From assembly GCF_014640255.1 (NCBI RefSeq), contig NZ_BMGP01000005.1, positions 232,880 through 296,879 on the forward strand: a stretch of 64,000 bases of DNA, written 5' to 3'. Positions 27,704 to 56,057 of the stretch are shown here, piece by piece. The DNA comes from Subtercola lobariae (GTDB taxonomy: Bacteria; Actinomycetota; Actinomycetes; Actinomycetales; Microbacteriaceae). Position numbers and translations under genes: made by a program. The first letter of the stretch is position 1. Every line of letters begins with the position of its first letter. Under the pieces are notes generated by a model. That model saw nothing but the letters and a program-made list of their open reading frames with translations. It did not search any database and had not been told where the DNA came from.

Positions 27704-28234
27704 TTATTTGGATTCCCACCACGGAGTGATGACTGCTCGCGCCAAAGTATGCGACGCGAGATTGAAACCGAGAAAAGCAGGAGTTGCGTCGACGCTGATT
27801 TCGAGCTCATCAACATCTACCGCGTGCACGGCTATGAAGTAGTTGTGTTTGCCGCTTCCAGCGGGAGGGGCAGCGCCCAGGAAGCGCTTCAGCCCGGCAT
27901 CGTTGGCCAGCTGAAGAGCACCTGCTGGCAGATCGTCGCTCAGCCCGCTCCCCACCCCTGTTCCCAGCTCGGTGACAGAACTCGGGATGTTCGCGACCGC
28001 CCAGTGCCAGAACCCGCTCCCTGTTGGAGCCGTCGGATCGTAGACAGTCACCACGAAGCTCTTCGTGGCTGATGGGAAACCCGACCAAGAGAGATTCGGA
28101 GATGTGTCCGATCCGCCGGCACCGAAGATGCCGCTGACGTGGGCGAGAGCGAGTTCTTCGCCATCTGCGACATCGGTGCTGGTGACCTCGAACTCAGGTA
28201 CTGACGCGATCTGGTCATACGGTGATTTTGACAT
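27704..28234 (-). CDS. YbhB/YbcL family Raf kinase inhibitor-like protein (PEBP)
   Basis: A 176-aa phosphatidylethanolamine-binding-protein fold. Typical blocks are [44 protein letters not shown] (about 44-87) and [13 protein letters not shown] (about 127-139), with the DPDAP-like and GxxxYxGPxPP-like ligand-pocket elements reduced to YDPTAP and APPAGSG. Physiological role in bacteria is poorly defined. AAGGAAG precedes the ATG. It is downstream of the alcohol dehydrogenase gene on the same strand. Confidence 0.88.
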
Positions 28235-28280
28235 GTGCTTCCTTGCTCATTGTTTCGGTTTTCGTTTTTTTCGGTTCAGG

Positions 28281-29309
28281 TCAGGGAATGAGAATGCCGC
28301 GCCCGCGAATGCGGCCCAGCTGTAAGTCTGCGATCGCGTCGAGGGCGGCATCGAGGGGATACTCGGCCGTGTGCAAGACCATGCGGCTTTGGCTGGTGAG
28401 GGTCATCAGTTCAACGAGGTCGTTGTAGGTTCCAACCAGGTTTCCCACAATGTTGATTTCGCGAGAAATGATGTCAATTGTCGGCACATTGACGGTGCCG
28501 CCGTATCCGATCACGTAATGCGATCCCCGCGTACGCAACAACTTCGGCGCGAGAAGTTCCGCACCGTTCTCTCCGACGAAGTCGAAGAGAACGTGTGCTC
28601 CCCCCGAAGTGATGTCTAATACCCGCCGTTGCACGAACTCATCGCTTGTCGCATGCACAGTGTGGTGAGCGCCGAGTTCTATCGCTAGTTCGAGGGCCGC
28701 CTCAGACTGATCGACGACTGTGACCTCAGCCGAGGTGATTGCGAGCAGGCTCTGAATGCCGATGTGACCCAGACCACCGGCACCAACAACAACGGTGTGG
28801 GTACCTGGGTATAGTGCAGACGCTGCCTTGCGCACGGCATGGTATGCGGTGAGACCTGCATCTGCCAAAGCGGCAACGTTTCGCGGTTCTAATCCCGGGC
28901 CGAGCTTGACGACTGCTCGAGCGTTCGTGAGAAGCTGCTGCGCCATTCCGCCGTCGACATTCACACCCGGAAATGTTGCGTTCTCGCAGTGGGAGTCTTC
29001 GCCGATTCGGCAAGCCGGGCACAGGCCACAGCTCGTAAGCGGGTGCATGATGACGGCATCGCCCGGAGATACGTTGCTGACCGCAGATCCCACCTCGCGA
29101 ACCCACCCGGCATTTTCGTGCCCGAGCGTGTACGGCAACTGTGGGTTCTGGATTCCAGACCACTGGCCCTCGATGATGTGCAAGTCGGTTCGACATAAGC
29201 CCGCGGCACCGATGTCGACGATCACGTCCCACGGTCTCGTGATCCGTGGTTCGGCAACCTCGTCAACGGTGGGCGGACGCTCGTATTCGTGCAGTCTTAC
29301 GGCCTTCAC
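28281..29309 (-). CDS. Zinc-dependent alcohol dehydrogenase
   Basis: A 342-aa medium-chain dehydrogenase. Cys39, and His64-Glu65 in GHENAG, contribute to the catalytic zinc site. Cys94, Cys97, Cys100 and Cys108 (CGLCPACRIGEDSHC) form the structural zinc lobe. The Rossmann motif GAGGLGHIG (about 175-183) binds NAD(P). GTG 29309 is used because family members start KAVRLHEY. It is transcribed divergently from the small membrane/HTH pair, through a bidirectional promoter resembling two others in the island. Likely it interconverts alcohols and the aldehydes made by the amine oxidase. Confidence 0.9.
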   Translation of the reverse strand: MKAVRLHEYERPPTVDEVAEPRITRPWDVIVDIGAAGLCRTDLHIIEGQWSGIQNPQLPYTLGHENAGWVREVGSAVSNVSPGDAVIMHPLTSCGLCPACRIGEDSHCENATFPGVNVDGGMAQQLLTNARAVVKLGPGLEPRNVAALADAGLTAYHAVRKAASALYPGTHTVVVGAGGLGHIGIQSLLAITSAEVTVVDQSEAALELAIELGAHHTVHATSDEFVQRRVLDITSGGAHVLFDFVGENGAELLAPKLLRTRGSHYVIGYGGTVNVPTIDIISREINIVGNLVGTYNDLVELMTLTSQSRMVLHTAEYPLDAALDAIADLQLGRIRGRGILIP

Positions 29310-29333
29310 ATCGACTCTTTTCCCTGTTCTGTA

Positions 29334-29396
29334 ATTATCTGTTAATAAATAATAGAGTACAAATCTATTGACACGCAAGTTAAACTAATCTAACGT
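29334..29396. promoter_or_regulatory. Divergent promoter pair, site 1 of 3
   Basis: Plus strand: TTGACA (29368-29373), 17 bp, TAACGT (29391-29396). Minus strand: TTGTAC (29362-29357), 17 bp, GATAAT (29339-29334). The two -35 boxes lie five bases apart. The core reads GTCAATAGATTTG on the minus strand with a downstream TATTATTT, related to the sites at 34283-34299 and 41654-41670. The plus start would be near 29403, only about five bases before the ATG at 29408, so that mRNA is almost leaderless. Confidence 0.65.
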
Positions 29397-29407
29397 CAAT
29401 CTACACG

Positions 29408-29605
29408 ATGACCCCTAGTCCTGACCGCCCCAGCCTCGTAAGAATGTTGTTGTTCTCAGCAGCGTTTTGCGTCATCGGTGCTGCGCTATGTGCAAAATCT
29501 CTCGGAGACTCTTCAGCGTTGGTCGACATCTGGGCTGGCGGATTTTCTGTCGTCTTGGGTTCGTCGCTCTGTGTTCAAGCGTTCGCCAGGTTGCTGGAGG
29601 TCTAG
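29408..29605 (+). CDS. Small membrane protein, probably leaderless
   Basis: A 65-aa protein with two hydrophobic segments (about 12-30 and 39-60) and no recognised family. There is no ribosome-binding site before ATG 29408, and the predicted promoter ends about 12 bases upstream, which fits leaderless translation. Its last codons contain the GGAGG used by the following HTH gene. It may be a membrane partner of that regulator. Confidence 0.55.
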   Translation: MTPSPDRPSLVRMLLFSAAFCVIGAALCAKSLGDSSALVDIWAGGFSVVLGSSLCVQAFARLLEV

Positions 29606-29609
29606 CGAG

Positions 29610-29942
29610 TTGGCGAAGCAGACAATTGAGGCTTGGGAAGCGTCGAGTGTCGATGACACCGGTCGGGCATTCACCGCTCTCGGTGTATCAAACGCACGCG
29701 TTGAGATACTCCGTGCTATTTCTCGTCGCGGTGAAAGCCCTACGAGTGCGCTGATGGAGGACGTCGGTCTTAGCCGAAATGGTCTCTCGCGACATCTCGA
29801 GGTTCTGCGTCAATCAGGGTTTTTGTCAGATCGGCATGCGACGCATCCGCGCGGTTCTGGTCCAATCACCTACTGGAGTCTCGACAGTGACGGTATCAGT
29901 GACGCGATCGAGGCGCTGTTGACTTACATTTCGACTCTCTAG
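29610..29942 (+). CDS. Helix-turn-helix (ArsR/MarR-like) transcriptional regulator
   Basis: A 110-aa winged-helix protein. NARVEILRAISRRGESPTSALMEDVGLSRNGLSRHLEVLRQSGFLSDRH (about 27-75) is an ArsR-type HTH, and the wing includes GPITYWSLD. No metal-binding cysteine motif is present. TTG 29610 is chosen because GGAGG (29596-29600) lies nine bases upstream; longer versions would overlap the small membrane gene out of frame. It probably controls the divergent alcohol dehydrogenase promoter. Confidence 0.72.
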   Translation: MAKQTIEAWEASSVDDTGRAFTALGVSNARVEILRAISRRGESPTSALMEDVGLSRNGLSRHLEVLRQSGFLSDRHATHPRGSGPITYWSLDSDGISDAIEALLTYISTL

Positions 29943-29943
29943 T

Positions 29944-29965
29944 CATTCTGCGTTGTTGCAGAATG
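29944..29965. terminator. Hairpin between convergent genes
   Basis: CATTCTGC (29944-29951) and GCAGAATG (29958-29965) form a perfect 8-bp stem with loop GTTGTT, directly after the HTH stop and before the end of the minus-strand membrane gene. It is likely a shared terminator. Confidence 0.6.
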
Positions 29966-29984
29966 CGGCGCTTGCGCAGGCTGT

Positions 29985-30536
29985 TTATGCAGACATGACA
30001 GTCATCGCCAGAATCATGCAGAGCGTGCAGGTCGCGTGAGGGATGGTGTGGGCTCTTTTTTTGTGAATGGCAGGCACGATCAGTACCGCTGCACACAGAG
30101 CCCAGTCAACGAGCACTAGTGTGCCGATTATGTTGCTGGCGAGCATTTCGTGCGGCATGTGAAGTGAACTAGCTGCGGGGCTGGAGGCTGTGGTGGCGGG
30201 AGTGTCCATTCGATGAGCTGGCATGAGAAGCAAGGCAAGAGCCATGAACCACACATCGACGAGCACAAGAATAGTGACGGATTTCTGCCGTGCATTTGAG
30301 GCCCGATTAGAGCGTATTCGAGCGACCACCAAGGTGATCATACTGACGCTGATCACTGCTAACAGCGCTCCGCAGCCTACGCTTGCGGGAAAACTCGGCA
30401 GTGTGAGTACAGCGAGCATCACCGCGCCAGTTATCAGGCTTACCCCTGCCTGAATTCGTGAACCGTTGCGTCCGCCGACGGCTGCAGCCATGCCCGCGAT
30501 TGTGAGAATGGCTGCAGCGATGCTGGTCAGTGGCAC
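29985..30536 (-). CDS. Hypothetical six-helix membrane protein
   Basis: A 183-aa protein with about six transmembrane segments. His and Met residues cluster around 115-130 (HRMDTPATTASS, then HMPHEMLAS) and at the C-terminus (HTIPHATCTLCMILAMTVMSA). This pattern recalls DUF5134-like proteins and suggests metal, perhaps copper, binding. It overlaps the end of the copper amine oxidase gene by 10 bases and lies downstream of it on the same strand. A role in copper supply to the oxidase is possible but unproven. Confidence 0.6.
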   Translation of the reverse strand: MPLTSIAAAILTIAGMAAAVGGRNGSRIQAGVSLITGAVMLAVLTLPSFPASVGCGALLAVISVSMITLVVARIRSNRASNARQKSVTILVLVDVWFMALALLLMPAHRMDTPATTASSPAASSLHMPHEMLASNIIGTLVLVDWALCAAVLIVPAIHKKRAHTIPHATCTLCMILAMTVMSA

Positions 30537-32500
30537 GTATGCCCGTCTGTTCCACCGTCAGCATGGTGTTGGTGCGAAACATCTGCCGGAACGTCGAGGG
30601 TCGGATTTCGGTCAAAGAAACCATGCGGCTTCAGGGTGAATTTTGCGTAGTCCACAGGCATGACTGGCCAGTCCTCGGGTCGGGGAAAGTGGGTGGGTCC
30701 GAAGGTGTGCCACAAGACGATGTCTTCGTTCTCGAGCGAGCGGCCTGCCTTCTGATATTCCGGTATTCCGCCGCCACCGAGGTGTTGATTGGGAAAATCT
30801 CCTGCTGAGTAACGTTCCTTCGGGTCGTATTGCGTGATCCACAGCTGTTTGGTCGTGAATTGGGCACGCGTCGTGACCGTTGCTGATTCGTCGGCCAGCA
30901 GCACCGGGTTCTGTTCCGGATAGAGAACGTAAGAGACCGGGTCACCGAATCGGTTCAGAGAGTTGGGGTTCGTGATGTGCCACGTTCGAGCGAGGCTGGC
31001 ATTGGCGAGCCGACCTCCTTCAGACTCGTTTGTGATCGGCGTGGCCTTGTTCGTGAACGCGTTGCCGTGTTCATTGCCGGGCCCAGCCGGAACTCGTTTA
31101 ACTTCAACTTCTTGAACGGTATTGTTCGTCCCGTCGACGGTCATGTCTAGACGTGCCGAGAAGAGGTGCTGATGGTAAGGGGCCCCAAGGCCCGGCGCGA
31201 CCTCGTTGGCGTATGGATAGTCTTTTCCCCGATATGACGAGGTGAACAGTATGCCGGTAAGTTTTGCTTCGCACTCGATAGTGCCGTCTAGATAGAGGTA
31301 CCAGAAAAAACCGTAATCATAGTTGCCCACGGTGGTGAAGAATGAGATCACGAGCCGGCGTTGCCGGCGGGTCTCGTTCGATCCGGTCACGAAGTCAGAA
31401 TGTTTCCAGAGAATGCCGTAATCCTCTTCGTGCATGCAGATGGCATTCTTGATCGTCTTCGGGTGGCCCTGCTCATCCATGATCACGCCATCGAAGTACG
31501 TGATCTCACCGACGCAGTCGCAGCCGAGTTCGAGGCTGTTGGTGTATCGGGCGAACATGTACTCGCCGGTGTCGAAGTAGTTCTGCCAAAACCGCACCGG
31601 GCTCGGATCAGCGTACGGCACCACCATTTCGGCGATCGATGCCCGATAGATGATCGGCCGATCTTCACCCTTGTCGTGGAAAGAGAGCTGGCGCAATATC
31701 AGTCCCTCTCGCGCATCGAACCCGACCCGGAATTTCCAGTTCTGCCAGGTGACGACCTCGCCGTCGACCTGATACGACGGCCCATCTGGCTGACTGATCT
31801 CGAGTGGCTTCAGGCTCTTACGCTCTGGCCCACGGAACGCAGGGTCGTCATAGTTGCCTGATTCTTTCGGCACCGGCAAATCCAGAAAGTCGACGAGCTT
31901 GATGACACGCCCTTCGGTCATATCTACGTAGGCGCAGAGCCCATCGACAGGATGGGCCCAGCACGCGTCTGTCGGATGGTCCTGCATGAAGAACAAAGAC
32001 CGGGCGACGCGATGGTTCAACTCATCGTCGAAACCATAGTGTCCAGCAGAGAGCGGAATGGAGACAACCTGAGCGGGGTCGATACCGCGCCGAGCGATCG
32101 CCTCCTGAAACCCGGGGTCGGCTTGAATAATAGGCCCGATCAACTCGAATTCTTCGTCGAGAATCGCAACCTGACCATCCTCTGGTGCGATTGATCGAAC
32201 CGAGACCACGCTGGCTGCGACAATGTCCACCACGATGTCTTGCGACTCGCCGGTAGCCAGATCGATGAGGATCGCTCTGGCCCACCGTCTTACGGCATCG
32301 CCGGGGCTGAAAGCCAGAACGTCTTTCTTGTTCGGCTCCTCTAACCCCACGTGCACAAATCGAGTCGACTCGAGCAGAAATTCTCCATCGTGAAGGATTT
32401 TGCGGACCGCGTCGAGTTCGCTGACACTGAGATTGTCCAGTGGATGAGGCTGCACGTCGCCCATGCCCGCAATGCTTCTCTCATGCTGAGTGATCGACAT
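30527..32500 (-). CDS. Copper-containing primary amine oxidase
   Basis: A 657-aa amine oxidase that oxidises R-CH2-NH2 to aldehyde, NH3 and H2O2. Tyr394 in the T-V-G-N-Y-D motif is the precursor of the topaquinone cofactor, and Asp310 (YFDTGEYMF) is the catalytic base. Copper ligands are His443 and His445 (HQHLFSARLDM) and His604 (THFPRPEDWP). No signal peptide is seen, so it is probably cytoplasmic. An unusual His-rich tail (HQHHADGGTDGHTCH) may bind extra copper. An APC permease lies just upstream, and aldehyde dehydrogenases are nearby to consume the product. Confidence 0.95.
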   Translation of the reverse strand: MSITQHERSIAGMGDVQPHPLDNLSVSELDAVRKILHDGEFLLESTRFVHVGLEEPNKKDVLAFSPGDAVRRWARAILIDLATGESQDIVVDIVAASVVSVRSIAPEDGQVAILDEEFELIGPIIQADPGFQEAIARRGIDPAQVVSIPLSAGHYGFDDELNHRVARSLFFMQDHPTDACWAHPVDGLCAYVDMTEGRVIKLVDFLDLPVPKESGNYDDPAFRGPERKSLKPLEISQPDGPSYQVDGEVVTWQNWKFRVGFDAREGLILRQLSFHDKGEDRPIIYRASIAEMVVPYADPSPVRFWQNYFDTGEYMFARYTNSLELGCDCVGEITYFDGVIMDEQGHPKTIKNAICMHEEDYGILWKHSDFVTGSNETRRQRRLVISFFTTVGNYDYGFFWYLYLDGTIECEAKLTGILFTSSYRGKDYPYANEVAPGLGAPYHQHLFSARLDMTVDGTNNTVQEVEVKRVPAGPGNEHGNAFTNKATPITNESEGGRLANASLARTWHITNPNSLNRFGDPVSYVLYPEQNPVLLADESATVTTRAQFTTKQLWITQYDPKERYSAGDFPNQHLGGGGIPEYQKAGRSLENEDIVLWHTFGPTHFPRPEDWPVMPVDYAKFTLKPHGFFDRNPTLDVPADVSHQHHADGGTDGHTCH

Positions 32501-32544
32501 AAAAAGTTCCTTCTCTTCTTGAGTGCGTTGATCGGCCTGAATCC

Positions 32545-34035
32545 CTACGACTCTTGACGCCCGATTTTGCTGTAGACATCTGGTCGGTGGTTGCGGAGCC
32601 AGAGCGCGAGAACGATGCCCGCGACGGTGATGACGATCAGGCCTATCGCGCAGATGGGTCCGATGTTAGGAATTCCGAGGACGAGATCCAAGTTGGTCAA
32701 CACGAGCACGAGAACCGCAGCGAATCCGATGCCGGCAAGAGCAGGCGCGATCAATGACTTCCATGTCGACTCCAGGCCTGGTCGGCGCCGGAAGAACGCG
32801 ATGATCGCCGCTATCGTGCCCAGGAACAACAGCAGGATGCAGATCGTGCCGAACCCGCCGAACGCACCGTAGATCAGCACGACATCTTTGCTGAAGCCGA
32901 TCAAAATGAGGTAGATGGCTAGGCAGATTCCGATGCTGGCCAAGACAGCGATCCAGGGAGACCCAAGTTTACGATGCACTCGGCCTAGACCAGAGGGCAG
33001 AATTCGATCCCGTCCCATCGAGTACAGATATCTGACGGACGCGCCTTGCACAGAGTTCGCCGCAGCAAGTTGACTTGTCACGAGCAGAACCGATACGAGG
33101 GTTGCCACAAAGCCGCCGAGATAGACCTGAATACTAGAGATCACTGAATCGACGGGGGCATTGCGAGCATCATCAACGACCTGCGAGGGTCCGACGGCCA
33201 CGATATAAGCGAACGCGGCGAGAGCGAAGAACAGGGCGGTGAAAATGATCGCACCGTAGGCCGCCCTCGGAACCGTCTTTTCGGGCTTCTTCACCTCTTC
33301 CCTGAACACGGCCATCGCTTCGATACCGATCATTGTGTTGAGCGCAAACAGCACTGCGATACCGGGGTTGGCAGACAGAAATTCAGAGGGCAGAAAGGAA
33401 GAGGGGGAGTACCCTTCTGGGCCGCCCTTGATCATCACCGAAGCTTCATAAACGGCGACAATGATGATCTCTAGGCTGACGAAGACAGCAACAGCCTTAA
33501 TAGAGAGGTCTACGCGCAGCAGATTGAGCACCGTAACGACGGCAAAGCCGATCAGGCCCCAAACCTGCCAGGGCAGGGAGGAGCCGAAGACGTTGGTCAC
33601 GAGCGTCTCGGTGATCAAACCGAGGAACACATAGCCACTCACGGCGTAAAAGATGTAAGCGATGGTTGCCAAGAACGAACCCGCAACGGCAGCAGGTTTA
33701 CCCAAACCTTGGGCGATCAGGGTGTAAAAGGCGCCCGGAGTCTTCATATGCCGGCTAATGGCCAAGATCCCGACCTCGAACAGCAGCAGCAACGCACCCG
33801 CTGCAAGAAAAGCGACAGGCGCGCCTATTCCGTTTCCGAAGGCAATGGCCGGTTGGAGGTAGCCCGCCAGCACAGCAAGCGGGGCGTTGAATGCAATGAA
33901 GATGAATGCCAAAGTAACGGCATTGAGTTTTCGTGGTAGAGCAGTTTGTGGTTGAGTGGCCGCCGATGGATCATTGGCCGCCTCAGAAGTCGTTGAGGTG
34001 CGAACCTCAGGTGCTTTGTGATCGAGCTCACTCAT
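32545..34035 (-). CDS. APC family amino acid/amine permease
   Basis: A 496-aa transporter with about 12 transmembrane helices. The N-terminal tail is hydrophilic, and helix 1 shows the APC pattern LAFIFIAFNAPLAVLAGYLQPAIAFGNGIG. GIEAMAVFREEVKKPEKTVPRA (about 233-254) is the conserved loop of the superfamily. It shares a transcript with the amine oxidase (44 bases apart), so uptake of an amine or amino acid substrate is likely. It is divergent from the first aldehyde dehydrogenase. Confidence 0.92.
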   Translation of the reverse strand: MSELDHKAPEVRTSTTSEAANDPSAATQPQTALPRKLNAVTLAFIFIAFNAPLAVLAGYLQPAIAFGNGIGAPVAFLAAGALLLLFEVGILAISRHMKTPGAFYTLIAQGLGKPAAVAGSFLATIAYIFYAVSGYVFLGLITETLVTNVFGSSLPWQVWGLIGFAVVTVLNLLRVDLSIKAVAVFVSLEIIIVAVYEASVMIKGGPEGYSPSSFLPSEFLSANPGIAVLFALNTMIGIEAMAVFREEVKKPEKTVPRAAYGAIIFTALFFALAAFAYIVAVGPSQVVDDARNAPVDSVISSIQVYLGGFVATLVSVLLVTSQLAAANSVQGASVRYLYSMGRDRILPSGLGRVHRKLGSPWIAVLASIGICLAIYLILIGFSKDVVLIYGAFGGFGTICILLLFLGTIAAIIAFFRRRPGLESTWKSLIAPALAGIGFAAVLVLVLTNLDLVLGIPNIGPICAIGLIVITVAGIVLALWLRNHRPDVYSKIGRQES

Positions 34036-34259
34036 TTGTAGACACTCCAGGTATTGGGCGGAAACCGTGTTGGATGTGAATTCGAATGCCTGCGCCCGTG
34101 GTCTTTAGCCGGCGAAGGCCGAATCGTCGTACTTGATTGGTGAATTATTCGCGGGTAAATCTGGTGATTCGCTACAGACGCGCAAGTCAACGTCGTTTGG
34201 TGACTGATCGGCTGGGACGCGCGGGGTGTTACGCCAGCCAGCGCATTTCTGTTTCCCCG

Positions 34260-34322
34260 ACACTAGAGGTGGATTCTGCAATAGTCAATATATTTGACAC
34301 TTATTATTTGAAGATGTAACTT
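34260..34322. promoter_or_regulatory. Divergent promoter pair, site 2 of 3
   Basis: Plus strand: TTGACA (34294-34299), 17 bp, TAACTT (34317-34322). Minus strand: TTGACT (34288-34283), 17 bp, TAGTGT (34265-34260). The -35 boxes are five bases apart, and the core is GTCAATATATTTG with downstream TATTATTT. This AT-rich block lies in the 341-base gap between the permease and aldehyde dehydrogenase genes. The rest of the gap holds nothing I can name. Confidence 0.68.
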
Positions 34323-34376
34323 TAAGAATATCGATTTCCTCAATCGACGATGACGCGTTAATCCAGGGAGTATCTG

Positions 34377-35870
34377 ATGAGCACTATCACCGAACAGACG
34401 AGTGTCTTGAATGACGCGCGCGTTGAGTTGAGCGGACGTCAGCTCGGTCATGTCATAGACGGGCAGATCGACCCGTCGGGTATCGGAGATGCGATCGTGG
34501 TGATTGATCCTGCGTCCGGAGATGTGATTGCAACCATCCCCCAGGGAACGAAAGCGCATGTTGATCGTGCTGTTGAGGCTGCGAGAACGGCACAGCCGGC
34601 CTGGCGGTCCAAATCGTATTCAGAACGTGCAACCGTCTTGAATGCCGTCGCGGGTCTGGTTGAGGCGAACGTTGAAAGACTCGCCGCGCTGGAGTCACTC
34701 AACACGGGCAAGCCATTCGATGCGGCTCGCGACGAGATTCTTGGTACTGCTGAAGCATTTCGATTCCTGGCGGGTGCGGCACGAGCGTTGCAGGCTCCCG
34801 CGCCAGATGAATATGTGGGTGGCCAACTTTCCATGATTCGACGAGAACCGGTTGGCGTTGTCGGTGCAATAACTCCATGGAACTATCCGTTGTTAACAGC
34901 ATCGTGGAAGATCGCTCCAGCTCTCGCTATGGGAAACACTGTCGTTCTCAAACCCTCTGAGCTCACCCCGCTGACCACCCTTCTGTTCATGGATCTGATA
35001 AAAGACGTGCTCCCTGCGGGGGTCCTCAATATTGTTCTCGGTACCGGCCGAGAAGTGGGTGCCGCTCTGAGCGAGCACACCGCTGTCGATCTGATTTCGT
35101 TGACAGGCAGCGTTGGTAGCGGGCAAGCGGTTATCGCGGGCTCAGCTCATACGTTGAAGCCGACGCACTTAGAGCTGGGGGGAAAGGCGCCCGTTCTCGT
35201 CTTCGACGACGCCGTCCTCGATGATGTCGCTGCGGGAGTACGGTTCGCCGGTTTCTGGAATTCCGGTCAAGAGTGCGGCTCGGCGACGCGCATCATCTGT
35301 GCTGAGTCTGTTCGAGACGAACTGACTCAGCGTCTCGTCGACTCTGCCACGACCCTCCGTGTGGGAGCGCCGGATGAGTTGAACTCCGAAATGGGCCCTC
35401 TCATCAGTGAGCGGCAGCGTAACGCGGTGGCAGCGATGGTGAATCGGGCGCGTGATGCAGGTGCGACTGTGGTTTTGGGCGGTGAGGTGCCTGACGGGGC
35501 CGGCTTTTTCTATCCGCCCACAATTATCACCGACGTGGTTCACGGGAGTGAGATTGCGACGCAAGAGATCTTTGGGCCTGTGGTCACGATCGAGACCTTT
35601 TCTGATGAAGCTGAGGCGCTAGCGTTGGCGAACAGCGTCGTGTACGGTCTCGCAGCCTCCGTCTGGACCGAGAATCTTGGTCGCGCTCTGCGGGTCTCGA
35701 GCCTTCTTGACTTCGGTACGGTGTGGGTCAACGGACACCTGCACGGGGTGAGTGAGATGCCGTGGGGTGGGTTCGGTGCGTCTGGACACGGGCGTGAGAT
35801 GTCAATTTTTGCGCTCGAAGATTTCTCTCGAACAAAGCATGTGATGATCGCGACAGGGGCGACTTCCTAA
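34377..35870 (+). CDS. Aldehyde dehydrogenase (aminobutyraldehyde/betaine-aldehyde type)
   Basis: A 497-aa NAD(P)-dependent aldehyde dehydrogenase. Asn169 (PWNYP), Glu266 (LELGGK) and nucleophile Cys300 (NSGQECGSATRI) make up the active site. The closest visible pattern is to gamma-aminobutyraldehyde and betaine-aldehyde dehydrogenases. It is divergent from the permease and amine oxidase operon, so it probably oxidises the aldehyde made by that oxidase. The second ALDH in this island (38000) is about the same length but diverges clearly in sequence. Confidence 0.93.
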   Translation: MSTITEQTSVLNDARVELSGRQLGHVIDGQIDPSGIGDAIVVIDPASGDVIATIPQGTKAHVDRAVEAARTAQPAWRSKSYSERATVLNAVAGLVEANVERLAALESLNTGKPFDAARDEILGTAEAFRFLAGAARALQAPAPDEYVGGQLSMIRREPVGVVGAITPWNYPLLTASWKIAPALAMGNTVVLKPSELTPLTTLLFMDLIKDVLPAGVLNIVLGTGREVGAALSEHTAVDLISLTGSVGSGQAVIAGSAHTLKPTHLELGGKAPVLVFDDAVLDDVAAGVRFAGFWNSGQECGSATRIICAESVRDELTQRLVDSATTLRVGAPDELNSEMGPLISERQRNAVAAMVNRARDAGATVVLGGEVPDGAGFFYPPTIITDVVHGSEIATQEIFGPVVTIETFSDEAEALALANSVVYGLAASVWTENLGRALRVSSLLDFGTVWVNGHLHGVSEMPWGGFGASGHGREMSIFALEDFSRTKHVMIATGATS

Positions 35871-35965
35871 CACCTGAACGGTTTCCGCCGCAGTATTTCT
35901 GCACCGCTATCAAGCAACCACTAGTTCTCGCATCAGCGGGAAACGTCAAACGAAGGAGAACATAA

Positions 35966-36304
35966 ATGTCAGGCAGCGTAGTACCTCACTTCAACGCACA
36001 CAGCGCGGAGTTCAAGAAATTTTCCGCGGGCGAGATGGCTCTTCTGTATGCATCAGATGATGGAACCCGGCTTGCGGGAAGCTTCAAAGAATCCGGCCTC
36101 CATCAGATGACGATGCCGTTTGACGAGTTCATCTATATCGTCGCTGGAAGCTCGAAAATCACTGTAGAAGGCGAAACCTTCGAGATGGGCGTGGGTGACG
36201 CCTGCTACTTGAAGAAAGGCATGGAAGTCACTTTCGAACACTCCTCAGACTTTCACGATGTAACCGTGTTGCTCTCAGACACTCCCATCGAACCAATAGT
36301 TTGA
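35966..36304 (+). CDS. Cupin domain protein (EutQ/Cupin_3-like)
   Basis: A 112-aa single cupin barrel: MPFDEFIYIVAGSSKITVEGETFEMGVGDACYLKKGMEVTFEH (about 50-92). The usual HxH metal ligands of motif 1 are not seen (PFDEFIYIV), as in EutQ-like and (S)-ureidoglycine-type cupins. AAGGAGAA precedes the ATG by 5 bases. It follows the aldehyde dehydrogenase by 95 bases on the same strand and may stabilise or isomerise a reactive intermediate. Confidence 0.82.
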   Translation: MSGSVVPHFNAHSAEFKKFSAGEMALLYASDDGTRLAGSFKESGLHQMTMPFDEFIYIVAGSSKITVEGETFEMGVGDACYLKKGMEVTFEHSSDFHDVTVLLSDTPIEPIV

Positions 36305-36386
36305 GTCATGATGACGCCTATGGTTCGATACGCCTCGAATCATTCGCGCTACCATTTGTACCGAGTCACTGATTGGACGGGGTAAC

Positions 36387-37868
36387 ATGCCTCCATTTCC
36401 ATCTGCGAGCAGAGATCTGGTCTTCTCTAATCTGCCATCGTCGGACATCGTTGCCGCGGTGGTGCAGAGAATTAGATCTGCCATCGGACTCGGGTTGGTG
36501 GCCGGTGGTGACAAGCTTCCGAAAGAGGCGGAGCTGGCGAGACAATTTGGCATTTCAGCCTTTGCGCTTCGCGAGGCACTCACGACGTTGCGCGAAGAAG
36601 GCGCGATCGAGACTCGGGCTGGCAAGTTCGGAGGCAGCTTCGTTACTGAATCGCTCGTCACAGAATCGCTCGCTCACGACGAACTATGCCGCTTGACTTT
36701 CTCGGAGCTACGAGACCTCGGGGATTGGCGACGCATGCTTTCTGCGCAGGCCGCAGATCTTGCTGCGCGGCGAGCATCGCCTTCGAACCTCGAGAGGCTT
36801 TCCGGTTACGCACATCAAGTCTCCGAGGCCCAGACGGCTGAACAAGCACGTCGTGCGCACGGCCGTTTCTACTTGGAGCTGGCCGCGGCCGGCCAATCCA
36901 TGAGGTTGAGTCAGGCCGGATTTGCCATGCACGATCAGCTCGATTGGCTGTTCGGTCTCGTGCTTGACGACGAACCCAAACGGGCGCTGAGGTCTGCGGA
37001 GCTGAGCGAGATCGTGCACTGCGTCGGCACCCAGAATTCGGACTACGCCCGCGTTCTGGCATCAACTCACATTCTCACGATGGTGGATGAGCTGGCGCGT
37101 TTACGATTGGAGCTGATTGCGAGCCGAGATCGGCAAAGCGGTGCCAGAGTCAAGGCCGTGAGCGGTGAGAGCTTCGCTGCGGAAGTAGAACTGTTCGTCG
37201 GCTCGCTGGCATCCGAGATTGGGGCCTTGGCAGTAAAAACCGCGCCCCTATTAGGTGCGACGCTGTCGGCCCGTGAAATTCGCACAGGGGTTTCGTTGCT
37301 TGTTCTTCCTGCGTTCGATCGGATTCCTATTTTCAGCCTCGGCCTCGGCGTCATGGCAGAGGTCGGAGTAGTGCCCGAGCATCCCTACTGGATCAACTGG
37401 TGGGAGACGACGCCATCGGGTCCAGTCGAAAATACTCATCACATTCTCGATCCCGAAGACGAAAACTTTTATGACTACGAAGCCAGGGAGTTCATAGCCC
37501 AGCCTCGACAGCGCTTAGCAGACTGGGCGACCGGCCCGTATGTGGACTACGGGGGAAACAATGACTACATAGTCACGTTTTCGTCCCCCATTCTGTTCGA
37601 AGACCGGTTTCTCGGGGTCGTGACGGTCGACCTCTTGGTCGCCGACTTAGAGCGTCACTTCTCATCGTTTCTTGCCGGACTCGATAGCTCCTGCGTCGTC
37701 GTGAACGCTGAAAATCGAGTGGTGATGTCGAATTCTGTGTCGTTTGACGTTGGTGATGTGGTCAGGCCGGCATCGAGCGATGACGTGTTCTCGATCGGCG
37801 TTTTCGGCTGGTCGCTGGTTCTGAAAAATACCCGAGTGAGCACTGAAACAGCCAACATTCTCGCATAA
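36387..37868 (+). CDS. GntR/FCD transcriptional regulator fused to a Cache sensor domain
   Basis: A 493-aa protein. Residues about 18-90 form a FadR-type GntR winged helix (RIRSAIGLGLVAGGDKLPKEAELARQFGISAFALREALTTLREEGAIETR). About 105-245 are a helical FCD-like ligand domain. About 265-480 look like a Cache sensor: RQRLADWATGPYVDYGG (375-390), then TFSSPILFEDRFLGVVTVDLLVADLE (397-422). Normal FadR-type regulators are about 230 aa. Cache domains are usually extracytoplasmic, but no membrane helix is present, so this one would sense inside the cell. The context points to amines, amino acids or sugar acids as ligand. Confidence 0.82.
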   Translation: MPPFPSASRDLVFSNLPSSDIVAAVVQRIRSAIGLGLVAGGDKLPKEAELARQFGISAFALREALTTLREEGAIETRAGKFGGSFVTESLVTESLAHDELCRLTFSELRDLGDWRRMLSAQAADLAARRASPSNLERLSGYAHQVSEAQTAEQARRAHGRFYLELAAAGQSMRLSQAGFAMHDQLDWLFGLVLDDEPKRALRSAELSEIVHCVGTQNSDYARVLASTHILTMVDELARLRLELIASRDRQSGARVKAVSGESFAAEVELFVGSLASEIGALAVKTAPLLGATLSAREIRTGVSLLVLPAFDRIPIFSLGLGVMAEVGVVPEHPYWINWWETTPSGPVENTHHILDPEDENFYDYEAREFIAQPRQRLADWATGPYVDYGGNNDYIVTFSSPILFEDRFLGVVTVDLLVADLERHFSSFLAGLDSSCVVVNAENRVVMSNSVSFDVGDVVRPASSDDVFSIGVFGWSLVLKNTRVSTETANILA

Positions 37869-37999
37869 CTACTGAGCGCCATCGGGATCACCGATGTGCT
37901 CCCGATCTGGGTCGCGAATTCGGGTCTACCGGCAGTATCCGCTGCCTACTTATTCGCGCCCGAATTCACAGGCAATCTTTCAAAAAATGAGGAAAACAG

Positions 38000-39478
38000 A
38001 TGTCAAATGAGCAACTGGCGAACGACCAGCGAACAGTGGTGCGGGATTTCTCCAAAAGGGTAATCGGGAATTTCATAGATAATCGCTGGGCTCCCTCGAC
38101 ATCAGCCGACCAACTCGTTGTGGTTGATCCTTCAACCGGACTCGAGATTGGGCGCGTTCCTGCTTCTTCGGCGGTCGATGTAGATGTCGCTGTCTCGGCC
38201 GCCGCGGCCGCCCAACCAGCATGGGCTCGTCTGACACCCGCTGCTCGGGCGAACTATTTGCTCGAGCTGGCGACGCTCGTCGAGCAGCACATTGATGAAC
38301 TGGTGGTGATCGAAGCAATCGACGCGGGAAAGCCGATCACGGCCGCAAAGGAAGAAATGCACGGCGTGGTCGACGCAATGCGCTTTTTTGCTGGCTCCGC
38401 CCGCTCGCTGCCCGCCCCCGCCGGCGGTGACTATCTCGACGGAGTGACGTCGGTCATGCGGAGAGAACCGGTCGGCGTCGTTGCCGGCATCACCCCTTGG
38501 AACTATCCGCTCCTACAAGCGGTTGCGAAGTTGTTTCCCGCCCTCGCCACTGGCAACACGGTGGTGATTAAGCCTGCCGAGACGACGCCCTACTCCACCG
38601 CCTGGCTGGCAGAGTTCAGCGTTCGCGTGCTCCCTCCCGGCGTGTTCAATGTCGTCTTCGGAACCGGCCACAGTGTCGGCGAGGCGCTCACTCGGCACCC
38701 AGACGTCGATCTCGTGTCTTTCACCGGGTCTATCGAGGCCGGTCGTAAGGTCGGCATAGCCGCCGCTGATGGTGTCAAGAAAGCAATCATGGAGTTGGGT
38801 GGCAATGCTCCCGTCATTGTCTTCGATGACGCAGCTCTTGACTCCGCTGTCGATGCAATCGTGATTGCGGGTTTGTACAACACTGGGCAAGAGTGCATGG
38901 CAGCGAGTCGACTGATCGTGCATTCTTCGATTGTCGAAAAATTTACCGAGGCCCTGATCGTGCGCTGCACCGTCGAGCGAATCGGCGATGTTCTTGATCA
39001 GAGCACAACTCTTGGCCCAATGACATCAGCGAGTCAGCGCACTCGAGTTCTCGAGAAAATCGAACGACGCAGCGCCTTGTCACAGGTGGTGACTGGCGGC
39101 ACGGTGCCTGCGGGCGAAGGTTTCTATTTCCCGCCGACGATCATCACCGGAGTCTCACAAGACGACGAGCTCGTGCAGGAGGAAATATTCGGTCCGGTCT
39201 TTACAATTCAAACTTTCGATTCAGAGAACGAGGCGCTGCTGCTGGCGAATGGAACTCGCTACGGGCTCGCGGCTTCGGTCTTTACCACCGACGTCGGTCG
39301 CTCGATTCGCGTACAGAATGCGCTCGATTTCGGAACCGTGTGGGTGAACACGCATCTGGTATTCGCTGCGGATCTTCCCGTGAGCGGGTTTGGTTCCTCT
39401 GGCATTGGTACCGAGAACGCCGAGCTGGGTGTTATCGAGTTCACCCGTCTGAAGCACGTCATGATCGACCAGCACTAA
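38000..39478 (+). CDS. Aldehyde dehydrogenase (second copy in the island)
   Basis: A 492-aa NAD(P)-dependent aldehyde dehydrogenase. Asn168 (PWNYP), Glu265 (MELGGN) and Cys299 (NTGQECMAASRL) are the catalytic set. Its lineage is clearly different from the copy at 34377. Position 22 bases before the hydroxyproline-epimerase-like gene makes 2-oxoglutarate semialdehyde a reasonable substrate, because both the hydroxyproline and pentonate routes end in that aldehyde. Aminoaldehydes are an alternative. Confidence 0.92.
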   Translation: MSNEQLANDQRTVVRDFSKRVIGNFIDNRWAPSTSADQLVVVDPSTGLEIGRVPASSAVDVDVAVSAAAAAQPAWARLTPAARANYLLELATLVEQHIDELVVIEAIDAGKPITAAKEEMHGVVDAMRFFAGSARSLPAPAGGDYLDGVTSVMRREPVGVVAGITPWNYPLLQAVAKLFPALATGNTVVIKPAETTPYSTAWLAEFSVRVLPPGVFNVVFGTGHSVGEALTRHPDVDLVSFTGSIEAGRKVGIAAADGVKKAIMELGGNAPVIVFDDAALDSAVDAIVIAGLYNTGQECMAASRLIVHSSIVEKFTEALIVRCTVERIGDVLDQSTTLGPMTSASQRTRVLEKIERRSALSQVVTGGTVPAGEGFYFPPTIITGVSQDDELVQEEIFGPVFTIQTFDSENEALLLANGTRYGLAASVFTTDVGRSIRVQNALDFGTVWVNTHLVFAADLPVSGFGSSGIGTENAELGVIEFTRLKHVMIDQH

Positions 39479-39544
39479 CGAATCAAACCCGACACAGGGG
39501 TGTGCAACCGCTCCCCCGATGAAGTAAGACGAGAGCGAATATTC

Positions 39545-40576
39545 ATGCGATTGAACAATTTAGTACATGTCGTTGGCTGCCATGCCGAAGGGGAGGTGGG
39601 CAACGTCGTAGTCGGCGGAATTGGCGACATTCCGGGGCAGACAATGTTTGACAAGCGAAACTATCTCGAACAACATCGAGACGATCTCAGGCGCCGCCTC
39701 TTGCACGAACCGCGCGGCAACGTCATTCGCAGCACGAACGTCATTCTGCCGTCTAATGACCCGCGCGCACAAATGGGGTACGTCATTCTCGAATCGACCG
39801 AGTATCCGGCGATGTCTGGCAGTAATACAATTTGCGTCGCGACGGTTTTGCTTGAGACAGGCATGATTCCCATGCAAGAGCCCGTGACGAACCTAACTCT
39901 CGAATCGCCGGCTGGTCTGATTGAACTCGAGTGCCAGTGCAGCGATGGAAAAGTCACGAGTGTGCGGTTCCTGAATCAGCCGGCGTTCGTCTACGAGCTC
40001 GATGCGGTGATCGATGTACCCGACTTGGGAAAGGTGACGGTCGACGTCGCGTGGGGCGGCATGGCGTACGTGCTCGTTGACGCTCAGAGCGTCGGCATCG
40101 AGATCGTTCCTGCGCGAGCTCGCGATATCGCGATACTCGGCCAACGTATCAAGCTGGCCGCCGCCGAGCAGCTTCAGGCGGTGCATCCGGTGCATCCTGA
40201 CTTCCCGGGAATCACTCAAACCGAATTCACTAATCCGATCCGACGAGAGGGCGGAGTGTTGACGGCTCGAAACGCTGTCGCTGTGTCTCCGGGTCGGTTG
40301 GATCGTAGCCCGTGCGGCACCGGCACCTCTGCTCGTCTAGCCGTGATGCACGCCAAAGGTGAGATTCAAAAAGGCGAACGGTTCGTGCATGAGTCGATCA
40401 TCGGAACGAAGTTCGACAGCACCATTGAGTCACTGACGACCGTAGGTGGAATCGCTGCCGTTGTGCCGAGCGTGGCCGGGCAGGCCTGGATCACCGACAT
40501 TTCTCAGGTTGGCGTAGACCCGACTGACCCATTTCAAACCGGCTATACCCTAGCCGACACCTGGATGCAGCTGTGA
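39545..40576 (+). CDS. Proline racemase family protein (hydroxyproline epimerase-like)
   Basis: A 343-aa diaminopimelate-epimerase-fold enzyme of the proline racemase family. The first catalytic cysteine (usually MCGH) is replaced by Ser91 in MSGSNTI. The second is kept as Cys257 in RSPCGTGTSARL. Family studies associate a Ser/Cys pair mainly with hydroxyproline epimerases, and Thr/Cys with trans-3-hydroxyproline dehydratase. The N-terminal HTGGEP motif reads HAEGEV. ATG 39545 is chosen over GTG-type upstream starts because the fold begins at once. It is followed by a large hairpin. Confidence 0.85.
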   Translation: MRLNNLVHVVGCHAEGEVGNVVVGGIGDIPGQTMFDKRNYLEQHRDDLRRRLLHEPRGNVIRSTNVILPSNDPRAQMGYVILESTEYPAMSGSNTICVATVLLETGMIPMQEPVTNLTLESPAGLIELECQCSDGKVTSVRFLNQPAFVYELDAVIDVPDLGKVTVDVAWGGMAYVLVDAQSVGIEIVPARARDIAILGQRIKLAAAEQLQAVHPVHPDFPGITQTEFTNPIRREGGVLTARNAVAVSPGRLDRSPCGTGTSARLAVMHAKGEIQKGERFVHESIIGTKFDSTIESLTTVGGIAAVVPSVAGQAWITDISQVGVDPTDPFQTGYTLADTWMQL

Positions 40577-40604
40577 CAGTCATGACGTAGCCGCCGTGAA
40601 TGCT

Positions 40605-40661
40605 GGATTCCTGCCGCCATTATTTCAACATCGAGGTTTAGCCTCGTGGCGGCAGGAATCC
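40605..40661. terminator. Long perfect hairpin between convergent genes
   Basis: GGATTCCTGCCGCCA (40605-40619) is perfectly complementary to 40647-40661. The 27-base loop contains a second small hairpin, CGAGG/CCTCG (40632-40646). It fills the space between the epimerase-like gene and the convergent DapA-family gene. It is probably a bidirectional terminator, though the stem is unusually long and has no T-tract. Confidence 0.7.
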
Positions 40662-40667
40662 CGACGC

Positions 40668-41597
40668 CTATTCGACGGACAGCAATCCAACTGAGCTGAG
40701 CAACTCGTGAAGTTGAGCGGTCGAACTGGGATCGGACAACGGCAAGAGCGGGCTGCGCACAACCCCACCCGGTTGGCCGAGCATCTGCATCGCCGCTTTG
40801 AGCTGCGCCACGGGCGCGGCAAAACGACCACTGAAGTCGGGATTCCAAAGACCGGTCATCAAGGTGGAGTACTTAATTGCAACCTCGCGCGCGCGGTCGA
40901 TGTCGCCCGCATCGATGGCCTCGAAAAATGGCACCCCGAACGGCGCGCCCAGCCCGCCACCGTCGATGAATCCGTCGCTGCCGTAATTTTGGATCACATC
41001 GATTCCTGCAGGTGATATCAAGTTCGCGAAGACGCGCACTATCGGGCTCAACTCGACAACGGCTTGACGAAGTGCGACTAGGTTGCCCGTGCTGTTCTTG
41101 ATCGATACCACGTGGTCGAGCTCAGCCAGCCTGAGCATCGTAGATACTTCGATCTCGGTGCCGATTCCGAGCGGCCAGTTATAGATCGAGAGAGGAAGAT
41201 CTATACGCTGATCGATCTCTGAGAAGAATGCGAAGATCTCTTGTTGCGTCGGATGAACGTATGCAGGCGCAGTCGCAAGAACCCCATCCGCGCCGATGTG
41301 CTGGGCATGCTGAGCGAGTGCCACGACGTAGTCGGGTGTGAAACCGGAGCAGCCAACAATGACAGGAATTCTTCCACCGGAAATGGTGACGAAGAGCTCA
41401 GCATTTGTTTTGCGCTCCTGGAGCGTTTGCGCCCACCATTCACCGCTCGAACCATTGACGACGAGACCTTTAACCCCTTGAGCTATGTACATCTCAATCA
41501 TCGCTCGATGCAGGTCGGGGTCGATGAGACCGTCGTCTCCGAATGGCGTGGGTGCTGCAACCCAATAGCCGTGCCAGTCAACAGAATGACGATCCAT
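40668..41597 (-). CDS. DapA/DHDPS family lyase or deaminase (first copy)
   Basis: A 309-aa class I aldolase-fold enzyme. Lys167 (VVSIKNST) is the Schiff-base lysine and Tyr139 (LSIYNWP) the conserved tyrosine. The usual GTTGE pyruvate-binding motif reads GSSGE (49-53). ATG 41597 follows GGGGAGA. In hydroxyproline catabolism a DapA homologue deaminates pyrroline-4-hydroxy-2-carboxylate to 2-oxoglutarate semialdehyde. The neighbouring epimerase-like gene makes that role plausible, but a KDG-type aldolase cannot be excluded. Confidence 0.88.
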   Translation of the reverse strand: MDRHSVDWHGYWVAAPTPFGDDGLIDPDLHRAMIEMYIAQGVKGLVVNGSSGEWWAQTLQERKTNAELFVTISGGRIPVIVGCSGFTPDYVVALAQHAQHIGADGVLATAPAYVHPTQQEIFAFFSEIDQRIDLPLSIYNWPLGIGTEIEVSTMLRLAELDHVVSIKNSTGNLVALRQAVVELSPIVRVFANLISPAGIDVIQNYGSDGFIDGGGLGAPFGVPFFEAIDAGDIDRAREVAIKYSTLMTGLWNPDFSGRFAAPVAQLKAAMQMLGQPGGVVRSPLLPLSDPSSTAQLHELLSSVGLLSVE

Positions 41598-41630
41598 AGT
41601 TCTCCCCAGCTTCAAAGTGGCGTTTTTCTT

Positions 41631-41693
41631 AAAGTACACTTCTAAATATTAACTTGCAAATAATTTGACGCACTGTTGCTAGAGGAATATCGT
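41631..41693. promoter_or_regulatory. Divergent promoter pair, site 3 of 3
   Basis: Plus strand: TTGACG (41665-41670), 17 bp, TATCGT (41688-41693). Minus strand: TTGCAA (41659-41654), 17 bp, TACTTT (41636-41631). The -35 boxes are five bases apart. The core on the minus strand, GTCAAATTATTTG with TTAATATTT further on, aligns with site 2 at about 25 of 34 positions. CAAATTATTTG is itself palindromic. Confidence 0.68.
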
Positions 41694-41726
41694 CGGAGCA
41701 CGGGCAAGTCGCAATGGAGTGAAAAT

Positions 41727-43346
41727 ATGAGTCTCAAAGATGAAGCCGCCGTTGACATCGTCATCGTCGGAGCTGGTCCATCGGGCGCTGTCGTCGCGCA
41801 TACCCTCGCCTCGCGGGGATTCACGGTCATGTGCCTGGAACAAGGCGATTGGGTGAGCCCTGCCGACTATCCCGGGAACAAACCGGAATTCGAGCTTCTG
41901 TTGCAGCAAAAGTGGAGCTGGAACAACAACACAAGAAATCGCCCAGAAGATTACCCGATGAATCTGGATCACACAGACGTGGTGCCAATCATGTTCAGCG
42001 GCGTCGGAGGGTCGAGCCTGATGTATGGGGCGCACTGGCTGCGACTTCTTCCCTCGGATTTCCGGATGAAGACCCTTGATGGAATTTGCGACGACTGGCC
42101 GATCAGTTACGACGACCTCGAGCCGTATTACACGCGCATCGACAAAGTCATAGGGGTAGCGGGCCTGGGCGGAGACCCCGCATATCCCCCACAAGATTTC
42201 GATATGCCACCGCATCCTCTGGGCAAGGGTGGTCTGATCGCCGCCGAGGCCCTCAACAAACTCGGTTGGCACTGGTGGCCCGGAACCCAGGCGATTCCGA
42301 CTTTCAAGCACAAGAATCTCGAACAGTGCGTGCGATGGGGTGTCTGCGAGACCGGTTGTCCGGCCGGCGCGAAAGCCTCGTTCGACCTCGCATATTGGCC
42401 GCAGGCCATTGAAGCCGGAACCAAGCTGGTGACAGGAGCGCGTGTTCGCGAAATCACGGTAAACGAATCGGGTTTAGCCGACGCGGTCATCTGGATCGAC
42501 CGCGAAGGCCGTGAGCATAGGCAACAGACCAGCGCCGTTGTCATGGCGGCGAACGGGATCGGCACAGCACGGCTCCTCCTTCTCTCGACATCAAACAAGC
42601 ATCCCAATGGCCTTGCCAACTCGTCGGGGTTGGTGGGAAAGAACCTCATGTTGCATCCCAACAACGCTGTCGTGGGCTTGTACGACGAGGAAATCGAATC
42701 GTGGAAAGGACCAGCAGGGCAATTGATCTACTCTCTCGAGTTTGCAGAGACGGATGTAAGACGGGGGTTCTACGGCGGTTCCAAGGCCAATCTAATGCCG
42801 CTTCCGGGGGTTCTGCACATCTTGGAAATGTTCAAAGATCTGCCGTTCGAACAGCGGTGGGGAGATGCGGTACACAACCTCGACAAATACGCAGGTCGCG
42901 CGCTCAACTGGGCGGGTAATATCGGTGACCTTCCCGAGGAGACAAACCGCATCACTCTCGACCGCGACCTGACGGACAGTGACGGCATTCCGGCTCCCCG
43001 TATTGACTACAGAATCAGCGAGAACACGCAGAAGAACCTGGACTTCACTCTCGAGCGTCTGGAAGAAATGCATAAGGCGGCCGGGGCGGCCCATATTGCT
43101 TCAACGAAACTGTGGCGGGAGGCGCCCGGACACATCCTTGGCACGGCCCGCATGGGTAACGACCCGGCGACCTCCGTCGTCGATCGTTTCGGCCGAAGTC
43201 ACGACGTGTCGAACCTGTTCATCGTAGACGGAAGCATTATGGTCACCAGCGGAGCCATGAACCCCACCGCGACGATCACGGCGCTGGCGCTCAGGGCGGC
43301 TGAGCACATCGCTGAAACAGCGAAGGGGCAGCGGGTGCCCTCATGA
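41727..43346 (+). CDS. GMC oxidoreductase (gluconate 2-dehydrogenase large-subunit type)
   Basis: A 539-aa FAD enzyme. The dinucleotide motif GAGPSG is at 15-20. A cysteine block CVRWGVCETGCPAGAKAS (about 206-223) and the C-terminal HILGTARMG and NPTATITALALR motifs mark the membrane sugar/sugar-acid dehydrogenase branch. It would oxidise a sugar or polyol, passing electrons to a cytochrome partner. ATG 41727 has TGGAG about ten bases upstream. Its stop overlaps the small-subunit gene by four bases. No Tat signal is evident, which is unusual for the periplasmic enzymes. Confidence 0.9.
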   Translation: MSLKDEAAVDIVIVGAGPSGAVVAHTLASRGFTVMCLEQGDWVSPADYPGNKPEFELLLQQKWSWNNNTRNRPEDYPMNLDHTDVVPIMFSGVGGSSLMYGAHWLRLLPSDFRMKTLDGICDDWPISYDDLEPYYTRIDKVIGVAGLGGDPAYPPQDFDMPPHPLGKGGLIAAEALNKLGWHWWPGTQAIPTFKHKNLEQCVRWGVCETGCPAGAKASFDLAYWPQAIEAGTKLVTGARVREITVNESGLADAVIWIDREGREHRQQTSAVVMAANGIGTARLLLLSTSNKHPNGLANSSGLVGKNLMLHPNNAVVGLYDEEIESWKGPAGQLIYSLEFAETDVRRGFYGGSKANLMPLPGVLHILEMFKDLPFEQRWGDAVHNLDKYAGRALNWAGNIGDLPEETNRITLDRDLTDSDGIPAPRIDYRISENTQKNLDFTLERLEEMHKAAGAAHIASTKLWREAPGHILGTARMGNDPATSVVDRFGRSHDVSNLFIVDGSIMVTSGAMNPTATITALALRAAEHIAETAKGQRVPS

Positions 43347-46504: not shown

Positions 46505-46546
46505 ACCGGTACCTTCAAACCTGCAATCGCCCCAGGGCGTGGAGTA

Positions 46547-55909: not shown

Positions 55910-56057
55910 ACCATCTCCATTCGACGTTTGACATGTGCGTTAATTATTCACCACAGATGTCACTTTCGCAAGTGCGGGGTGAATTCGGGTGTCGATCCTG
56001 CGCGGAACGGCCTGGAATCCAAGCAGGCTGACGAGAAAAAGCATTATCGAAAATCAT

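Follow-up and report, generated by a model that had tools for sequence, protein, structure and literature searches.

Three divergent intergenic regions of Subtercola lobariae carry related 63-bp sequences, here called S1 (29334..29396), S2 (34260..34322) and S3 (41631..41693). Coordinates refer to the window, that is, the whole stretch of 64,000 nucleotides that was analysed (positions 232,880 to 296,879 of contig NZ_BMGP01000005.1). Sequence comparison strongly supports a shared cis element, and a common regulator specific for the surrounding gene cluster seems to be the simplest reading, since within the genome the element is restricted to this one cluster. With slightly less than even confidence, we propose that one bidirectional promoter-operator module is present here in triplicate, as S1 to S3, and that GntRC, a GntR-FCD-dCache protein encoded in the cluster, is the favoured regulator of the six operons. 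The arrangement as such, a divergon operator, is already known; here it is used three times with unusual exactness.

Architecture of the modules

Each putative module faces both directions. S1 is located between the gene of an alcohol dehydrogenase (ADH; minus strand) and a gene pair for a small membrane protein and a helix-turn-helix (HTH) protein (plus strand), S2 between the permease/amine oxidase genes (minus) and the operon of the aldehyde dehydrogenase ALDH1 (plus), and S3 between the gene of DapA1 (minus) and the GMC/dehydratase operon (plus). At all three sites, two divergent operons thus leave one intergenic region, as in a divergon. The original prediction had placed three sites of exactly 63 bp here, with six downstream units in divergent pairs, and both the sites and the gene layout bear this out.

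When S1 and S3 are read on the minus strand and S2 on the plus strand, their cores align without gaps as GTCAA-WWK-ATTTG-N5-TAWTATTT, with 17 of 26 columns invariant across all three. The corresponding 26-bp elements are GTCAATAGATTTGTACTCTATTATTT in S1 (29347..29372, minus strand; no mismatch to the common pattern), GTCAATATATTTGACACTTATTATTT in S2 (34284..34309, plus strand) and GTCAAATTATTTGCAAGTTAATATTT in S3 (41644..41669, minus strand), which also matches the common 26-mer pattern. The original prediction had recognised the GTCAA, ATTTG and AT-rich blocks, but with gaps of two to three and four to six bases; these are exactly three and exactly five in every module, and the three-base gap is not purely A/T, as had been supposed, since S1 has a G there. 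Over 34 positions, ungapped identity amounts to 24 for S2/S3 (about 25 had been claimed), 21 for S1/S2 and 20 for S1/S3.

Both strands of each module bear a -35-like hexamer. The two hexamers are five bases apart at all three sites, as predicted, and a further hexamer lies 17 bp beyond each. In the common orientation and in the order S1, S2, S3, the left-facing -35 boxes (TTGACA, TTGACT and TTGACG) are directed at the small membrane/HTH pair, the permease-amine oxidase genes and the GMC run, and the right-facing ones (TTGTAC, TTGACA and TTGCAA) at ADH, ALDH1 and DapA1. The hexamers at spacing 17 are TAACGT, TAGTGT and TATCGT on the left and GATAAT, TAACTT and TACTTT on the right. The claim of paired boxes with a 17-bp spacer therefore stands for the spacing in all six arms, but the boxes are uneven and mostly weak: out of six positions each, the -35 and -10 boxes match the consensus at 3 and 5 for ADH, 6 and 3 for membrane/HTH, 6 and 3 for ALDH1, 5 and 3 for the permease, 4 and 3 for DapA1, and 5 and 4 for GMC. 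The -10 boxes are situated at the outer ends. With transcription taken to begin 7 nt after the -10 box, the predicted starts within a module are about 76 bp apart (29327/29403, 34253/34329 and 41624/41700). Five predicted leaders are short (18 nt for ADH, 5 nt for the small membrane protein, 48 nt for ALDH1, and 27 nt each for DapA1 and GMC), and that of the permease measures 218 nt.

The paired -35 boxes are at the same time the arms of one short palindrome, GTCAAWWNATTTGAC, centred at about -38 of both promoters, so that a single palindrome overlaps both promoters. In the form GTCAA-N5-TTGAC it is perfect at S2 alone (34284-34298), and S1 and S3 retain the TTG of the right arm. A third half-site-like sequence, ATTTR, occurs 14 bp from the ATTTG arm, within the AT block, in all three modules; by arithmetic, this block occupies -49 to -56 of the left-facing promoter. 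The modules seem to be more than plain promoters, because -35 boxes alone need neither the exact gaps of three and five bases, nor the ATTT by the right arm, nor the AT block.

Statistical support and restriction to the cluster

The similarity exceeds that of randomised sequences. In 300 dinucleotide shuffles, the best three-way ungapped 26-bp block had at most 12 invariant columns, against the 17 observed; keeping the AT-rich core as a separate compartment raised this maximum to 13 (300 shuffles). Five of the six arms have TANNNT at a distance of exactly 17 bp outwards from the -35 box (the sixth has GATAAT), a result that did not arise once in 200,000 shuffles of the arms. When the spacing was varied from 10 to 27, the 17 other values gave it in one of 102 arm-spacing combinations. 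The non-random feature of the modules is their geometry, the individual boxes being weak. Indeed, in a sigma-70 scan (at least 9 of 12 positions) only the GMC side passes among the six arms, and the region 28000-46600 has 5 promoter-like sites versus 7.2 in shuffles.

In the complete genome (4,088,613 bases), the 26-mer with up to three mismatches is found at three places, namely S1 to S3 (control: none), and the geometry ANNNTA-N18-GTCAA-N5-TTG-N20-TANNNT with up to two mismatches again at S1 to S3 only (five strand hits; control: two). Both patterns were derived from S1 to S3, which match by construction; the informative point is that there is no further match anywhere else. Recurrence at random unrelated loci, which the original prediction had named as the danger to its proposal, is thus not seen in these 4.09 Mb. 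Shorter motifs are less selective. The palindrome GTCAA-N5-TTGAC with up to two mismatches is common, with 29 places in the window versus 22.4 expected and 1747 in the genome versus 1083 for the reversed control, and was rejected as a search motif for its lack of specificity. The 13-mer GTCAA-N3-ATTTG has five exact places in the genome, three of which are S1 to S3, and 66 with up to one mismatch (35 for the reversed control). The two remaining exact places are L103 and L104; the copy in L104 lies upstream of a leftward open reading frame (ORF), without recognisable divergent genes flanking it.

Within the window, the next-best 26-mer matches have six mismatches (four places). A partial element, GTCAAATGATTTTCG, is found at 56037-56062 on the minus strand, in an AT-rich divergent gap (55909 | 56118). 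It shows six mismatches to the 26-mer and one to GTCAA-N3-ATTTG, and could be a weak fourth site. No Rfam family reached its gathering score in the window, the 218-nt permease leader included.

The gene cluster and its candidate regulator

On the left of S1, the Zn-dependent ADH (28281..29309, minus strand; Pfam ADH_N/ADH_zinc_N) likely starts with the GTG at 29309. On its right follow a 65-residue ORF (29408..29605, plus), whose translation is hydrophobic by eye and which is presumably a membrane protein, and an ArsR-like winged-HTH protein (29610..29942, plus; HTH_20/HTH_5) with relatives within the genus. To the left of S2 are a copper primary-amine oxidase (30527..32500, minus; Pfam Cu_amine_oxid; 889.5 bits for NCBIfam NF008559, cut-off 651) and, according to domain searches, as for the next five proteins, an APC-type amino acid/amine permease (32545..34035, minus). 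To its right, on the plus strand, are ALDH1 (34377..35870), a cupin protein (35966..36304), GntRC (36387..37868), a second aldehyde dehydrogenase, ALDH2 (38000..39478), and a proline racemase family protein (39500..40576). S3 separates the DapA-family enzyme DapA1 (40668..41597, minus; ATG at 41597) from a GMC oxidoreductase (41727..43346, plus), which heads a same-strand run extending to 47764 in the order GMC, a 173-residue ORF, an IlvD/EDD dehydratase, DapA2 and an MFS protein; this run is probably co-transcribed. Both aldehyde dehydrogenases are nearest to aminobutyraldehyde dehydrogenase, yet under its cut-off (607.7 and 558 versus 615). Because the genes from 28281 to 47764 combine an amine oxidase, a permease and aldehyde dehydrogenases with other enzymes, primary-amine oxidation is their likeliest core function.

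GntRC, the favoured candidate binder of S1 to S3, resembles the FadR subfamily in having an N-terminal GntR winged HTH and an FCD domain (Pfam). In its structure model (pLDDT 88.6), the sensor has the dCache amine-receptor fold, with structural matches to the ligand domains of PctD, PacA and McpU. The sequence alignment with PctD is weak (E 0.14, below two unrelated chains at E 0.007); the W, the F and the last D are kept in it and the Tyr after the F is not, as matched by eye. There are at least 158 relatives at E<=1e-40; of the 120 that were listed, some but not all carry a Cache annotation. The closest (P0002 to P0006) are found on metagenome contigs and are 50-62% identical. At E<=1e-30, GntRC was found in none of the 11 other genomes of the genus and in 16 of 199 relatives, its own included; in 13 of the 15 others, the match covers the HTH-FCD part alone. 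At 1e-60, three of 394 genomes of the class have it, including its own. The sole match among 396 genomes of the phylum was its own genome, and among 148 relatives of G584 it was G584 itself. A scan of the contig collection gave two loci, of which L032 is a short HTH-only match that was not used, and a plasmid search at 1e-30 gave none.

In the favoured mechanism, a dimeric regulator bound to the palindrome would mask the two -35 boxes at once, and a single binding event would thereby control two operons. With three such sites, the six operons of this amine oxidation/catabolic cluster (28281-47764) would be under one switch. GntRC would be made from the S2-driven operon and would be self-regulated. 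Most likely, it represses by covering the -35 boxes, and binding of an amine or of a product of it to the cytosolic dCache domain would then release both promoters together. Two polymerases would hardly fit one module together, and the two directions may also compete. We infer in this way the extents of the operons as well as binding, repression, self-regulation and the class of ligand. More tentatively still, the modules may be the first operators of the GntR-FCD-dCache class, one-component regulators in which a dCache domain of the amine-receptor type, otherwise found mainly in membrane receptors, acts in the cytosol and directly controls DNA. The motif would then differ from the FadR consensus, its arms would double as two -35 boxes, and the three coupled operon pairs would all be switched by one dimer responding to amines. 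The literature searched on FCD/Cache-domain GntR proteins yielded no published operator for such regulators. If the proposal is true, a candidate regulator and a ligand class are at hand, together with an exactly defined target of 63 bp, all accessible to simple gel shifts, and the amine-sensing one-component regulators of this kind, with the many relatives counted above, would have an operator. The module also offers a compact natural two-way actinobacterial promoter, in which a single binding event may tie the two directions together. Were GntRC not the binder, a clean cluster-specific regulon would still be left.

A literature search on divergent genes with a single operator gave no match. 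Closest in arrangement, in the accessible part of the FadR-subfamily survey (PMC4494728), are GntR divergons with a single central site. The boxes described there are 2-3 nt apart, whereas the GTCAA/TTGAC-like arms of S1 to S3 are 5 nt apart, and extra boxes lie 7-12 nt from the centre, in contrast to about 17 nt for the third half-site (positions 23-27). HypR of Streptomyces coelicolor, a GntR/FCD repressor of hydroxyproline genes, is likewise an actinobacterial FCD regulator of a catabolic cluster, a repressor and autorepressor with some sites between divergent genes; its motif, CTNTGC(A/C)ATGTCAC, differs, and the term 'cache domain' does not occur in that paper (PMC6608401). As in the bidirectional promoters of Escherichia coli, pseudo-symmetric DNA may be transcribed both ways under steric exclusion of two polymerases; those promoters, as far as the available excerpt describes them, share a -10 element and have starts mostly 18, also 10 or 23, bp apart (PMC12825309). 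In S1 to S3, by contrast, no -10 is shared, the -35 sides abut and the predicted starts are far more widely spaced. In E. coli, competition is slight at basal activity and emerges once one direction is strengthened, according to the same excerpt (PMC12825309). Finally, the fold of the GntRC sensor links it to the dCache_1AM amine receptors, the class of PctD, PacA and McpU. A figure legend of the preprint on this class lists GntR among the domain architectures, whereas the receptors tabulated are kinases, chemoreceptors, a GGDEF/EAL protein and a phosphatase; no operator or regulon of a GntR-dCache protein was seen in the accessible part (preprint PMC10104139).

Counter-evidence and alternative explanations

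Several observations weigh against GntRC acting through S1 to S3 as proposed. S1 and S3 each deviate from the palindrome at two positions of its right arm, the predicted permease leader is long (218 nt), and the search patterns match the modules by construction, as said above. The regulator may activate instead of repress, because the palindrome is centred near -38 of both promoters, the -10 boxes are poor and the right-facing -35 boxes of S1 and S3 are weak; FadR at fabA, where it activates, is a parallel for such a position. Furthermore, among five loci of GntRC relatives scanned for the element (L031, L094, L095, L101 and L102), the exact form occurs in one, that of Jiangella (L101), and with N2 spacing. 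The Mycolicibacterium locus L031, the closest relative of the cluster, contains neither GTCAA-N3-ATTTG with up to one mismatch nor an N1, N2 or N4 form, and its two one-mismatch N5 matches are away from the regulator gap. In L095 (G087, same family), no element was found, despite relatives of GntRC (30%), the copper amine oxidase (38%) and ALDH2 (44%) within 9 kb. The operator signature of the subfamily is missing as well: the common FadR-subfamily consensus is TKGT-N2/3-ACMA, with exceptions such as NanR and BioR in the part of the survey available (Suvorova et al. 2015, PMC4494728), and no such sequence exists around S1 and S3 even at up to one mismatch. A one-mismatch form, TTGTAGACAC, is present at 34036, outside S2 and just upstream of the permease start codon (leader 34036-34253).

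The original prediction had proposed a shared regulator, with the GntR-Cache and the HTH protein as candidate binders. The cis element has proved cluster-restricted within the genome, and the regulator itself is still a deduction from sequence. Between the two candidates, GntRC is our reasoned guess, because its Jiangella relative is divergent from an ALDH1 relative across a gap holding an exact GTCAA-N2-ATTTG and because its sensor fold matches amine receptors. As a separate observation, the GntR-FCD-dCache regulators of L101 and L031, which belong to two distant actinobacteria, are divergent from an ALDH1 relative that is adjacent or close by, an association that may help in the choice of ligands to test.

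It is rather unlikely that the ArsR-like HTH protein (29610-29942) binds the same module instead. Its gene adjoins S1 and would be driven by it, it matches HTH_20 and HTH_5, and short inverted repeats rich in AT are frequent among the operators of the ArsR family. Its relatives occur at 15 places, two being paralogues in the same genome and 13 lying in nine of the 11 other genomes of the genus; among the 30 genomes searched, the 18 of other genera had none. Thirteen of these places were fetched, the two weakest of G005 being left out. No exact GTCAA-N2-4-ATTTG is present in the 450 bp preceding the aligned part at any of these 13, which lowers this candidacy; at one of them (L153), there is an N2 form with one mismatch. 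By BLAST, the 20-kb stretches L101 and L031 contain no relative of the HTH protein. An AT-rich stretch containing TTGCTGCGAATGAATTGGAGCAATCGAATCATTCG is almost the same in two of the upstream regions, L146 (G009) and L152 (G005), and may serve that family as its operator. Plasmid relatives of the HTH protein (35-42%) are found in Clavibacter, Curtobacterium and Frondihabitans among the best 10 of 27 records.

Equally improbable is a binder whose gene lies at another place in the genome, such as a LysR-, MarR- or CRP-type protein. The departure of S1 to S3 from the FadR-subfamily consensus would agree with it, as would the S2/S3 similarity that reaches 46 bp, and GTCAA-N5-TTGAC contains a T-N11-A dyad, which we take to be LysR-type. 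Confinement of the element to one cluster in 4.09 Mb is, however, unlike the trace of a global regulator.

A still smaller chance is given to three copied bidirectional promoters of common ancestry without a specific regulator, with mutual exclusion of polymerases as the sole control. The S2/S3 local alignment has a score of 41 (maximum of 31 in 2000 shuffles) and takes in 46 bp, the -10 region among them, which points to the copying of one cassette between these two; S1/S2 scores 30, reached by three of 2000 shuffles. Moreover, the AT block has the position where UP elements presumably sit. S1/S3, on the other hand, scores 15, which 1962 of 2000 shuffles reach, yet the 17-of-26 core, and only this, is kept between them, and the ATTT and the exact N3 and N5 are preserved beyond the needs of a -35 box. 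Finally, chance similarity can practically be dismissed: no other islands of the window are as rich in AT as S1 to S3 (minimum GC content over 60 bp 0.23-0.28; next island 0.32), but compartment-keeping shuffles never exceeded 13 of 26, and the arm shuffles and both genome searches, with no further copy, likewise reject it.

Outside this genome, the proposed motif search was less rewarding than within it. Eleven of 398 family genomes, its own included, have the 26-mer, the ten others at 11 places with two (one place) or three mismatches; the reversed control gave seven places, and conservation across the family was rejected as noise. GMC relatives at E<=1e-100 are present in 15 of the 398 genomes, again including its own. 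In the 13 loci fetched of the 14 others (all except G431), neither GntRC nor the full cluster layout was found, and the two scanned for the element, L084 and L085, have no exact form. In the nearest locus, L084, relatives of ALDH1 (46%), the permease (31%) and GMC (53%) stand in a row, and L093 combines relatives of the amine oxidase (38%) and GMC (44%).

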